Shown here in pieces: positions 22,322 to 56,694 of a DNA stretch of 64,000 bases. Source of the stretch: Candidatus Latescibacterota bacterium (GTDB lineage Bacteria > JAAXHH01). The stretch is from positions 1,189,045-1,253,044 of the forward strand of contig JAJEAN010000007.1 in assembly GCA_022822725.1 (NCBI GenBank). The letters run 5' to 3'. A model generated the notes under the pieces. That model searched no databases. It saw only the letters and a program-made list of their open reading frames with translations, and was not told the DNA's origin. Both the position numbers and the translations under genes were made by a program. Position 1 is the first letter of the stretch; every line of letters starts with the position of its first letter.

Positions 22322-22549
22322 ACCCCTCTGTTTCCACCGGGCACTGGGACTGTCCCAAAGGTCGGGAGCCTTCGCGCACCCGGCCGGCAGTACCTTAACC
22401 CGCTTCAAATCCCATTTGACAAAAACACCCGGCTTCAGCTTTTTCATTAGGCTTGAATTCGCTTGTAAACTGATTAGTTGGATGGACCGAAACCAGGCGA
22501 TCCATTCAACCTGATGCTCGGCACCATATTCTTGATCAAGGAATTACGC
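22322..22549. other. Intergenic region upstream of the SDR gene
   Basis: 228 bases without a gene. A TTGACA box at 22416-22421 is present but the sequence 17 bases on (CTTTTT) is a poor -10, so promoter placement is uncertain. The leader after it is AT-richer than its surroundings. Confidence 0.35.
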
Positions 22550-23320
22550 ATGTCCATATTGGATGCATTCAGACTGGATGGCAAAACCGCACTTGTAACC
22601 GGCTGCCGCAGAGGAATCGGCAGGGGCCTTGCCGAGGCGCTGGCCGAAGCGGGCGCGGATATCGTGGGCGTAAGCGCGTCGATGGAGGCGTCCGGCAGCG
22701 AGATCGAAAAAGCGGTCACTGCCCTTGGACGCAAGTTTACCGGTTACAGCGTCGATCTGAACGACCGGGACGCCCTGTATGATTTCATCCGCAAGGTCAA
22801 GGTTGATTTCCCGCATATCGATATCCTCGTCAACAACGCAGGATTGACACTGAGGGCGCCCGCCGAGGAGCATTCCGACGAGTACTGGGACACGGTCCTG
22901 AACGTAAACCTGAACGCGCCGTTCATTCTCAGCAGGGAAATCGGCCGTGACATGGTCGCCCGCGGCAAAGGCAAAATCGTGTTCACCGCGTCCGTGCTGT
23001 CCTTCCAGGGCGGCATTACCGTACCCAGTTACGCGGCGTCCAAGGGTGCGGTCGCACAGCTGGTCATGGCCCTGGCCAACGAATGGGCGTCAAGGGGCGT
23101 CAACGTCAACGGTATCGCGCCAGGATATATCGCTACGGACCTGACCTCCGCCCTGCAGACCGACCCGGAACGGTCCCGGTCCATTTCCGAGCGCATCCCT
23201 GCCGGCCGGTGGGGCGCTCCGGGAGACCTGGGTGGCGCCGTGGTCTATCTCAGTTCGGACGCCGCCGATTACGTCCACGGTGCGATTCTGGCCGTCGATG
23301 GGGGCTGGCTGGGCCGGTGA
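22550..23320 (+). CDS. SDR-family dehydrogenase, KduD/gluconate-5-dehydrogenase-like
   Basis: NAD(P)-dependent short-chain dehydrogenase of 256 residues. Cofactor motif TGCRRGIGRGLAEALAEAGAD, NNAG (INNA block DILVNNAGLTLR), catalytic Ser in TASVLSF and the YAASKGAV catalytic Tyr-Lys pair are all present, and it ends with the usual DGGWLGR. Similarity is closest to 2-keto-3-deoxygluconate or gluconate dehydrogenases. ATG 22550 is preceded by AAGGA. It is the first of a plus-strand run (SDR, PhyH, AhpD-like, TauD) that may act in one catabolic route; that link is inference. Confidence 0.92.
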   Translation: MSILDAFRLDGKTALVTGCRRGIGRGLAEALAEAGADIVGVSASMEASGSEIEKAVTALGRKFTGYSVDLNDRDALYDFIRKVKVDFPHIDILVNNAGLTLRAPAEEHSDEYWDTVLNVNLNAPFILSREIGRDMVARGKGKIVFTASVLSFQGGITVPSYAASKGAVAQLVMALANEWASRGVNVNGIAPGYIATDLTSALQTDPERSRSISERIPAGRWGAPGDLGGAVVYLSSDAADYVHGAILAVDGGWLGR

Positions 23321-23432: not shown

Positions 23433-24281
23433 ATGCCTTCGGACTACGCCCACTTGTTGACCGACGACGAGAAGTGGCATTTCGACCTGCAGGGATTCCT
23501 GCACCTGCGCGGCGTGATCGCGCCGGAACGCCTGGCACACATCCTGGAGGTCGCCGGTCACTGGCTGTCCGCAGACGAATCCGAAATCCCGGCGCCGGTT
23601 TTCAGGCATCGCCAGGAACCCTACAAGACCCACCTGGACCATATCCAGTACGGGCACCGGTTGTTCCAGGACCTGAATGCCGACCCTGAGATCATTCGCG
23701 TGGTCGCGGGCCTGACCATGGGCATGCCCCGGCTCTTCCACTGCAACTTCACGAAGATGGACCGGGCGTCGCCGGGTGACGAGGACCGCCAGGGCTACCA
23801 TCGGGACGACAGCGGCTTCAAGTTTCCCCCGGGCTTCCGGAATCCCCACAATGATTACCAGGCGGCGGGCGGCGAGATCTACTGCAGTCACCTGGCCACC
23901 TGGGTCGCGCTGTCCGGCGTCCCCGCGGGCACGGGTTTCAGCCTGGTGCCCGGCAGTCATAAATCGGCCTTCGGCACGCCGGATGGCCTGAAGGTCGGCG
24001 ACTATCCGCCCGTATCGATCACCGTGCCCATGGACGCGGGCGACGTCCTCGTGTTTTCGACCCACGTGTTGCACGACGCGGCGGTTTGGACGCAGGACGA
24101 ACCGAGGATGAACATCTTCCAGCGCTACCAGCTCAGCGCCTATTTCAATGAAACCGGCAAAGGCGGGTTGCCCCTGGAGGAATACCGCGATCAGATCACC
24201 GAAGAGGAGTACGAACTGGAGTCATTGAGCAAGGAAGAGAAAGCCGCCGTGACCCGCATGCGGCGACACTTCGATCTGTAA
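23433..24281 (+). CDS. Phytanoyl-CoA dioxygenase (PhyH) family protein
   Basis: Fe(II)/2-oxoglutarate-dependent oxygenase of 282 residues. Iron ligands are visible as the HxD pair in GYHRDDSGF (about residue 125) and the distal His in STHVLHDAAVW (about 212), followed by the 2-oxoglutarate-binding Arg in EPRMNIFQRYQ. Substrate unknown. It ends 19 bases before the AhpD-like gene, with AGGGGG between, so the two are probably co-transcribed. Confidence 0.88.
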   Translation: MPSDYAHLLTDDEKWHFDLQGFLHLRGVIAPERLAHILEVAGHWLSADESEIPAPVFRHRQEPYKTHLDHIQYGHRLFQDLNADPEIIRVVAGLTMGMPRLFHCNFTKMDRASPGDEDRQGYHRDDSGFKFPPGFRNPHNDYQAAGGEIYCSHLATWVALSGVPAGTGFSLVPGSHKSAFGTPDGLKVGDYPPVSITVPMDAGDVLVFSTHVLHDAAVWTQDEPRMNIFQRYQLSAYFNETGKGGLPLEEYRDQITEEEYELESLSKEEKAAVTRMRRHFDL

Positions 24282-24300
24282 TCCAATCAGGGGGACCTGT

Positions 24301-24864
24301 ATGGCGTGGATACGCACCATCGATGAATCGGAAGCGGAGGGACAGCTGGCCAGGATTTACCAGGGCTCGATGCGGTCCTGGGGCGGCGTGGATAACATCA
24401 TCAAGGCCCACAGCCTGAACGTGCAGGCGCTACGGGCGCTGATGACCTTTTACAAGGGACTGATGCACGGGGACTGCGACCTCACGCTGGGCCAGCGGGA
24501 GATGATCGCGACGACCGTTTCGGCTTTGAACGAGTGCGAGTACTGAGTCCGCCATCATGGGGAGGGGCTCCTCAGAGAGATCAACGACCGCGAACTGGTG
24601 GATGCGATCAAGAAGGACTACCGCGAGGCGAAACTGGAAGAAGCCGACCGCGCCATGCTGGAATACGTGCGCAAGCTGACCCTGGCGCCGGCGTCGACCG
24701 CCGAGGCGGACATAGAGCAGTTGCGCGCCGCGGGTTTCGGCGACAAGGCGATCCTGGAGATCAACCAGATTGCAGGGTTCTTCGCCTGGTGCAACCGGAC
24801 CGTGGACGGCCTGGGCGTGGAACTGGAAGCGTTCTGGGATGATCCGAACGCGTCGAACGTGTAG
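24301..24864 (+). CDS. AhpD-like/carboxymuconolactone-decarboxylase-type peroxidase with in-frame UGA, candidate selenoprotein
   Basis: 187-codon gene read through one TGA at 24544-24546. Before it the protein reads TTVSALNECEY, after it VRHHGEGLLREIND, which is the active-site block E-C-x-x-C-x3-H of the peroxidase-related/AhpD family with the second Cys replaced by the TGA codon. Both halves are in the same frame, full family length results (about 185), and downstream landmarks (LEYVRKLTLAP, IAGFFAWCNR) are intact. A hairpin follows at SECIS-like spacing. The best reading is selenocysteine (CxxU); a nonsense mutation or base error in a TGC/TGT codon is the alternative. Sits between PhyH and TauD genes; AGGGGG precedes the ATG. 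Confidence 0.72.
24558..24574 (+). promoter_or_regulatory. SECIS-like hairpin downstream of the in-frame UGA
   Basis: A 7-bp stem (24558-24564 with 24568-24574, including one G-U pair) closes a GGG loop at 24565-24567. The loop begins 18 bases after the UGA and has G at its first position; bacterial SECIS models require an apical loop about 16-37 bases downstream with a G near its 5' side. The same bases encode conserved HGEGLLR, so chance pairing cannot be excluded. Confidence 0.5.
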
Positions 24865-24950
24865 GGGCCGATAAACCGCGGGACATGCCAGAACCCAACG
24901 CAGCGAAATCCAGGACCACTTTGAATGCCAGTTCTACGATTGCGGGAACG

Positions 24951-25754
24951 ATGAATCCGTTACAGATCATAACGACCGGCGGCGCACTGGGTGCCGAGAT
25001 ACGCGGTCTCGATCTGCGCCGGGGACTGGACGCGGATACCGTTCGTACACTTCGCGCGGCCTTTCTCGAACACTGCGTGCTGTATTACCGCGACCAGCAG
25101 ATCAGCCAGCAGGACCTGGTACGGTTTACCCGGCACTTTGGAAAACCGGTGGCACACGTACGGCCGCAACCGGACCGTCCCATCGAGGAGATCTTCGTCA
25201 TCTCGAACGTGACCGAGGACGGCAAGCCGATCGGCGCCCTCGGGAGCGAAGAAATCCCATTCCATTCAGATCTGTCCTACCTGCCTGAACCGGGTACGAT
25301 CTCTTTGTTGTACGCGCTGGAGATCCCGGAAGTGGGGGGCGAAACGATGTGGGCCAGTGGGTACGCGGCCTACGAGGCCTTGGATCCCACCATGAAGGAC
25401 CGTATCGACGGCCTGAACGCGGTCCACCGCCATCCCATCGACGCGCTGAACACCCCGGAACCCACGATGCATCCCGTCGTGCGCACCCACCCGGAGACCG
25501 GACGCAAGGTGATCTACGTCAGTCCGCACCTGACCCATCATATCACGGACATGGAAAGGGAAGACGGCCGGGCCTTGCTGGACGAGTTGATCGCCCATGC
25601 CACCGCCGAGCGGTTTGTATGGAAACACCGCTGGCAGGTCGGCGACCTGGTCATGTGGGACAACCGCTGCACCATGCACCGCCGCACGCCCTTCGACGAT
25701 CGCCAGCGCAGGGTCATGTGGCGCACGCAGGTGTTTGGCGCGGGTACGAGATAG
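24951..25754 (+). CDS. TauD/TfdA family Fe(II)/2-oxoglutarate dioxygenase
   Basis: 267-residue dioxygenase. It begins with the family-typical ITTGGALGAEIRGLDL; the iron-binding HxD is in PFHSDLSY (about residue 105) and the distal His in NRCTMHRRTPF (about 245), followed by Arg residues for 2-oxoglutarate. Members oxidise taurine, aryloxyalkanoates, clavaminate precursors and other small acids; the substrate here is unknown. ATG 24951 has GGGA upstream; the frame is open to 24885. Lies 86 bases after the AhpD-like gene on the same strand. Confidence 0.9.
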   Translation: MNPLQIITTGGALGAEIRGLDLRRGLDADTVRTLRAAFLEHCVLYYRDQQISQQDLVRFTRHFGKPVAHVRPQPDRPIEEIFVISNVTEDGKPIGALGSEEIPFHSDLSYLPEPGTISLLYALEIPEVGGETMWASGYAAYEALDPTMKDRIDGLNAVHRHPIDALNTPEPTMHPVVRTHPETGRKVIYVSPHLTHHITDMEREDGRALLDELIAHATAERFVWKHRWQVGDLVMWDNRCTMHRRTPFDDRQRRVMWRTQVFGAGTR

Positions 25755-55627: not shown

Positions 55628-55892
55628 GGTCTGTCCTTTCGTGGAATGTCCCTGGATCTACGTCTGCAATTCAGGTTTCCGCAATCGCCGATGAGCTTTC
55701 TAACCGCTGTCGTCGAATCGGGAGGAAACATAAATGCAAATCCGCTTGTCCAATAGATGTCAGGTACTATAACTAAACGGTGGTCAAGTATTCAAGACCT
55801 TATGTAATCTGGTCGCGATGCAATCTGGTCGCGGATAGGGCACTATGCGTACCGTCCGCGACACCGGCCCACAAACCACGGGAGATCATGCT
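55628..55892. other. Intergenic region with 16-bp repeat
   Basis: 265 bases between divergent genes. AT-richer around 55740-55800 and includes the tandem 16-mer at 55804-55835. No clear promoter pair or gene is seen. Confidence 0.35.
55804..55835. repeat. 16-bp tandem repeat
   Basis: Two copies (55804-55819, 55820-55835) of an AATCTGGTCGCG-containing unit, differing at two positions, upstream of the TM2-domain gene. Confidence 0.85.
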
Positions 55893-56216
55893 ATGTCCCA
55901 TGAAACGGAGCTGCGGGAAGCGAACCTGGCTAAAAGTGACCTGGCGAACGGGGAACAGTTGCAGTTCGACGTGCAGTTCGCAACCCGGCGAAAAGACCCG
56001 AGAACCGCCCTCGCGATCAGTATCATTGGAGGTTCGCTTGGGGTCGACCGATTCTATATTGGCGATATTGGCCTCGGCATAGCCAAGTTACTGACCCTCG
56101 GCGGGTTGTTTATCTGGACGATCATCGACTGGTTCCTGATCATGGATGCGGCCCGGCTCAATAACAGCGAGCTCATGCGTCAGGTCCGCGACAGTATAGT
56201 TCAGTCGAGAACCTGA
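55893..56216 (+). CDS. TM2 domain-containing membrane protein
   Basis: 107-residue protein with a soluble N-terminus followed by the TM2 motif: two hydrophobic helices with GGSLGVDRFYIGDIGLGIAKLLTLGG and a DxF motif between them, then WTIIDWFLIM. Function is unknown for the family. ATG 55893 has GGAG about 9 bases upstream; the frame opens at 55845. The stop codon sits in a tandem 18-bp duplication. Confidence 0.82.
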   Translation: MSHETELREANLAKSDLANGEQLQFDVQFATRRKDPRTALAISIIGGSLGVDRFYIGDIGLGIAKLLTLGGLFIWTIIDWFLIMDAARLNNSELMRQVRDSIVQSRT

Positions 56217-56246
56217 TCCGGACTGGCGACCTGATCCGGACTGGCG
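56211..56246. repeat. Perfect 18-bp tandem duplication across the TM2 gene stop codon
   Basis: Bases 56211-56228 and 56229-56246 are identical; the first copy carries the TGA stop. Same arrangement as at the end of the ecfA gene. Confidence 0.95.
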
Positions 56247-56313
56247 GCTGGAAATGGTTTGCCGTTCAGATGCCAACTGCCTGCGTACGGGATTCCTGGA
56301 GAGGACGCGAAGA

Positions 56314-56694
56314 CTACCAGGTCGGAGCATCCTTCGGATCCGGTCCGTATCGATTCTCGCCTCTCGTGCCTTGCAGAATCAAAAACACCAGCAGAACCAC
56401 GACGCCGACAATCGGGATGAACGCGATCAGAATCCACCAGCCGCTGCGCTCTGTATCGTGGAGTCTTCGAAAAATCACCGCGAGATAGGGTACGATTACC
56501 GCTACATAGTAAAGGGTACTCAGGAACCCAAGGCTTTCTCCGTCCATCTCGAACTGCCATCCCATAAACTCGTCAATCACCGCGAGGAATATCGAAATGA
56601 TCGCGGAGAAAAGGAAGAACATCCAGAATTCCTTCCTCCTCGCCCTTCCGCTGAATACGGTGTACTTCTTCAATACATCCATATACCAGTGCAT
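56314..56694 (-). CDS. DUF805 family membrane protein
   Basis: 126-residue inner-membrane protein with the DUF805 signature YTVFSGRARRKEFWMF near the start and FRRLHDTERSGWW in the middle, and three hydrophobic helices. ATG 56694 (MHWYMDVLKKY) matches the family start; the frame opens at 56730. Function unknown; convergent with the TM2 gene. Confidence 0.88.
   Translation of the reverse strand: MHWYMDVLKKYTVFSGRARRKEFWMFFLFSAIISIFLAVIDEFMGWQFEMDGESLGFLSTLYYVAVIVPYLAVIFRRLHDTERSGWWILIAFIPIVGVVVLLVFLILQGTRGENRYGPDPKDAPTW

Follow-up and report, generated by a model that had tools for sequence, protein, structure and literature searches.

Gene organization of the locus

The DNA analysed here (referred to as the window) is a stretch of 64,000 nucleotides from a genome of 3.8 Mb in 9 contigs. 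It contains an open frame of 187 codons, with an ATG at 24301 and a TAG at 24862–24864, in which the sole in-frame TGA is codon 82. The features of the locus are listed in Table 1. With the TGA read as U, the central part of the translation is ...LTLGQREMIATTVSALNECEYUVRHHGEGLLREIND.... Standard ORF calling breaks the frame into two fragments, one of 81 residues (24301–24546) and one of 88 residues (24598–24864, with a GTG start). Both observations confirm a preliminary description of this DNA, which held that a single codon is wrong, at the second Cys of a CxxC motif, in an otherwise intact frame, and that gene calling would turn the gene into two fragments or a pseudogene.

A scan of the window identified 42 TGA codons flanked on either side by 30 or more open codons with GC-rich third positions; by inspection, codon 82 is the only one of these in a CxxU context. 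Together with its conservation in all orthologues, described below, this places the occurrence of TGA at CxxU beyond chance.

Table 1. Features of the locus (window positions) and the selD fusion of the same genome.
Feature	Position	Strand	Basis
SDR oxidoreductase gene, same direction	22478..23320	+	PF13561 189.8 bits; conserved synteny
Gene for a PhyH-type dioxygenase, 19 nt upstream; operon probably shared	23433..24281	+	PF05721 39.5 bits; conserved synteny
GGGGG, likely Shine-Dalgarno sequence	24290..24294	+	Inferred from position
AhpD-like (TIGR01926) gene, very probably a selenoprotein gene; 187 residues, Sec at 82	24301..24864	+	ORF, TIGR01926, PF02627
Codon of Cys79 (TGC), the Cys of the CxxU pair	24535..24537	+	TGC in each of 13 orthologues
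UGA codon of Sec82, which corresponds to M. tuberculosis AhpD Cys133	24544..24546	+	Frame, conservation, alignment
Predicted bacterial SECIS hairpin, 7-bp stem UGGGGAG/CUCCUCA, GGG loop 24565–24567	24558..24574	+	Geometry, bSECIS model
Gene for a TauD/TfdA-type dioxygenase, 20 nt downstream; operon probably shared	24885..25754	+	PF02668 234 bits; conserved synteny
selD fusion	G000:C9:294246-295187 (L056 1393-3810)		Profile match

The gaps of 19 and 20 nt suggest that the PhyH, AhpD-like and TauD genes are carried on one transcript. The AhpD-like gene is thus flanked by two different genes of the Fe(II)/2-oxoglutarate dioxygenase type, from the PhyH and TauD families, and its product may be functionally linked to those of its neighbors. 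The gene row is conserved in six relatives, in the order GH32, SDR, PhyH, AhpD(Sec), TauD, metallo-beta-lactamase, adenosine deaminase and Opp.

Family assignment and active site

The 187-residue protein matches the TIGR01926 peroxidase-related (AhpD-like) profile over residues 2–173 (140.8 bits; cut-off 81.8) and also matches PF02627 with 41.3 bits. Cys133 is the attacking cysteine in M. tuberculosis AhpD. In the solved relatives 6k40, 2pfx and 2oyo, a Cys is aligned to the UGA position. The proton-relay residues of AhpD are all present in the window protein, as E67-C79-Y81-U82-H86, and have the correct family spacing. This spacing is identical to that of the relays E118-C130-H132-C133-H137 in M. 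tuberculosis AhpD, where Cys133 is one of the two catalytic cysteines, and E36-C48-Y50-C51-H55 in P. aeruginosa PA0269 (PMC3141380). The three proteins share the pattern E-(x11)-C-x-(H/Y)-C-(x3)-H, except that the other two have Cys where the window gene has UGA. The preliminary description gave the active site as E-C-x-x-C-x3-H; the Glu beside Cys79 is not the catalytic Glu, which maps to E67.

We note that the window protein has the AhpD/CMD fold and CxxU motif in common with the AhpD-related (seleno)protein model NF041238 (“hypothetical protein 1” of the Sargasso Sea), but it scores only 53.9 bits against this model, where the cut-off is 175, and is approximately half as long as the model. 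Membership of NF053654, the related AhpD-like model for YciW-related (seleno)proteins, was rejected, at 31.5 bits against a cut-off of 310.

Conservation of the UGA codon

There are 33 homologues (E ≤ 1e-20) in 16 genomes of the phylum, all of which contain exactly one in-frame TGA. In the 32 whose sequences were retrieved, all but G014:C870, the TGA is read at CxxU. Among the 33 there are no Cys forms and no stops other than the single TGA, and the same TGA recurs in the orthologue as assembled in separate MAGs. The alignment of close homologues that the preliminary description had proposed as a check therefore comes out in favor of a selenoprotein: close relatives have TGA at the same codon, and none has Cys or a stop elsewhere. 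The pooled dN/dS among 11 members of the genus is 0.10 before the UGA and 0.15 after it, from which it follows that the part beyond the UGA is translated and constrained.

The close relatives that carry names are MAGs listed as Candidatus Latescibacterota or Gemmatimonadetes; some of these are probably the same assemblies as those in our set of 16, and the two sets are therefore not independent. At larger distance (35–45% identity), homologues with UGA occur in an Oligoflexia MAG, two Planctomycetota MAGs and one further bacterium, and homologues with Cys in Marinosulfonomonas, Bipolaricaulota and Acidobacteriaceae MAGs. Such a mixture, in which Sec and Cys replace one another, is what one expects to see in a selenoprotein family. 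Within the Latescibacterota-like lineage, the Sec form looks fixed.

A predicted SECIS hairpin

The stem of the predicted hairpin occupies positions 12–18 and 22–28 after the UGA, and its GGG loop begins 19 nt after the UGA. The bSECIS model (PMC13188914) describes a stem of 4–16 bp, a loop of 3–9 nt with G in the first two loop positions, a distance of 16–37 nt between UGA and loop, and an MFE of −7.5 or below. The hairpin agrees with the model in all of these respects, the 45 nt after the UGA having a folding energy of −10.4 kcal/mol. The hairpin codons 87–92 show the lowest synonymous variation of any six-codon window (0.03, compared to a gene mean of 0.28). They include an invariant AGA, a rare Arg codon that accounts for only 4 of the 224 Arg codons in neighboring genes.

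Since the stem is almost invariant within the orthologues, paralogues were compared in place of a covariation analysis. A second paralogue group, which includes the gene at G000:C4:42720-43166, has a strong SECIS-like hairpin, ACGCAGA-GUU-UCUGCGU; a third has the hairpin ACGGAGA-GGA-UCUCCGU, one nucleotide nearer to the UGA. The geometry is retained and the base pairs are changed: comparison by hand of the first two stems shows that six of the seven pairs differ on both sides. When the genes were recoded synonymously to give the same protein, an equally long stem arose in 2% of trials for the window gene (p = 0.02), 4–5% for the second group and 0.1–0.9% for the third. The best stems in four Cys homologues are only 4–5 bp long. 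For the 63 nt surrounding the UGA of the window gene, the folding energy is no better than that of shuffled sequences, and the hairpin is not exceptionally stable; the case for a SECIS element consequently rests on the stem geometry and the constrained synonymous sites. A scan of the window with Rfam found no RNA families, as expected, because an element as short as a SECIS may match no model.

Selenocysteine machinery

A search of the genome for the Sec machinery, which had also been suggested in the preliminary description, found all four components, each above its cut-off. The tRNA-Sec (70.6 bits) has the anticodon TCA, and selB lies immediately upstream of it (344.7 bits, cut-off 242). The selA gene is approximately 27 kb from this pair (487 bits, cut-off 268). 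The fourth component, selD, is part of an 805-residue fusion with an NADH-dehydrogenase-like domain, in which the SelD part scores 260 bits against a cut-off of 125; Ndh-SelD fusions have been described previously (PMC2398784). The fusion also matches the NCBIfam model TIGR04369 (“fusion_not_SelD”) below its cut-off, and its naming needs care.

Across the 16 genomes, tRNA-Sec is found above the cut-off in 14 and selA in 15. No tRNA-Sec was found in G013 and G014, which are both fragmented MAGs carrying UGA-containing AhpD-like genes; G014 has selA, and the only sign of selA in G013 is a weak tail where a contig ends. These absences are probably assembly gaps. In G007 the only tRNA-Sec match is weak (47.5 bits) and is the same match that appears as the second one in sister genomes, so that the true tRNA-Sec of G007 may be missing from the assembly.

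Proposed mechanism and alternative readings

The reading of this gene as a CxxU selenoprotein, as put forward in the preliminary description, is strongly supported by the Sec machinery, the conservation of the TGA, the selection acting beyond the UGA and the predicted SECIS. We consider it almost certain, on these sequence data, that the gene encodes a full-length AhpD-like selenoprotein of 187 residues with Sec at position 82. Given the anatomy of the gene and the machinery present, SelB with Sec-tRNA-Sec would bind the hairpin just 3′ of the UGA, and the ribosome would place selenocysteine at residue 82 rather than terminating. The product would contain a Cys79-x-x-Sec82 redox pair, served by a proton relay of E67, Y81 and H86. 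Coding, conservation, hairpin and machinery are read from the DNA, while we infer the chemistry and the substrate from the family: Sec82 would be the residue that attacks a peroxide or disulfide, and the selenenylsulfide then formed between Sec82 and Cys79 would be reduced by a cellular thiol system.

A genuine selenoprotein need not be a peroxidase, and this one could instead serve as a thiol–selenol adaptor or as a detoxification enzyme associated with the SDR, PhyH and TauD proteins. An adaptor function for AhpC has been ascribed to AhpD (PMC3141380), and the synteny from GH32 through to TauD in the six relatives is in keeping with such a role; however, neighbors alone do not fix a substrate. 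We regard a role of this kind as possible but less likely than not. We think it rather unlikely, though worth stating, that the AhpD-like family of this lineage has wholly lost its Cys form and has split into a number of paralogues that exist only as Sec forms and have separate SECIS hairpins. One of these paralogues, locked in the SDR–PhyH–TauD row, would then be a candidate for an undescribed selenium-dependent oxidative pathway.

Insertion of a residue other than selenocysteine, either because UGA is reassigned throughout the genome (for example to Trp or Gly) or because it is suppressed by an ordinary tRNA, is formally compatible with a conserved in-frame TGA. However, TGA terminates the neighboring GH32, SDR, metallo-beta-lactamase, adenosine deaminase and OppF genes, which shows that the standard code holds and leads us to reject genome-wide reassignment. 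In addition, the TGA aligns with a catalytic Cys and not with Trp or Gly, and the genome has a dedicated set of tRNA-Sec, SelA, SelB and SelD, making insertion of another residue very improbable. A pseudogene or an error of sequencing or assembly (a true nonsense mutation, or a miscalled TGC or TGT) has nothing in its favor beyond the formal presence of a stop within the frame, and is rejected as a negligible prospect, because the orthologues from separate MAGs all have their TGA at this codon and lack other stops, and because purifying selection persists downstream of it.

Relation to known selenoproteins

AhpD-like selenoproteins are already known, as the preliminary description had correctly stated, which limits the novelty of the window gene. 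CxxU forms were first described in 2005, with 27 sequences (PMC1088965); a count in 2008 gave 299 and 70 sequences in two groups (PMC2398784); and a 2026 review lists the CxxU form under TIGR01926 (PMC13188914). The window gene resembles the known TIGR01926 selenoproteins in its NCBIfam family, its CxxU motif, its one Sec and a bacterial SECIS directly downstream. It differs from them in belonging to a Latescibacterota-like lineage, and in that every homologue found there carries TGA. A literature search found no report on selenoproteins of this lineage, which is weak evidence of absence. The gene is a well-supported addition to a known selenoprotein family and not a new family. It turns a gene split in two by standard calling into a full-length selenoenzyme, and it documents the use of selenocysteine in a little-studied, uncultured lineage. 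The paralogues, with their three different SECIS stem sequences, form a natural test set for SECIS rules.

Other UGA-containing genes of the genome

Other UGA genes of the same genome were sampled by family searches. The second TIGR01926 gene, which belongs to the second hairpin group above (L026), has the motif CVYU and is conserved in the genus. A SelW/Rdx-like gene with an in-frame TGA at CADU (G000:C9:560050-560265; L082, UGA at 1525) is likely to be a selenoprotein gene, as is a Prx-like gene with an in-frame TGA at UPLC, a UxxC motif (G000:C9:1873562-1873960; L077, minus strand). These three genes indicate that the use of Sec is general in the genome.

The genome also encodes a distant SelA-like protein (G000:C6:57696-59093; 155 bits, below the cut-off), adjoining a SelD-like/AIR-synthase-type protein (55753-56520 of the same contig; 103 bits, below the cut-off). 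The SelA-like gene is also present in sister genomes, and together the two may form a paralogous pair of PLP enzymes.
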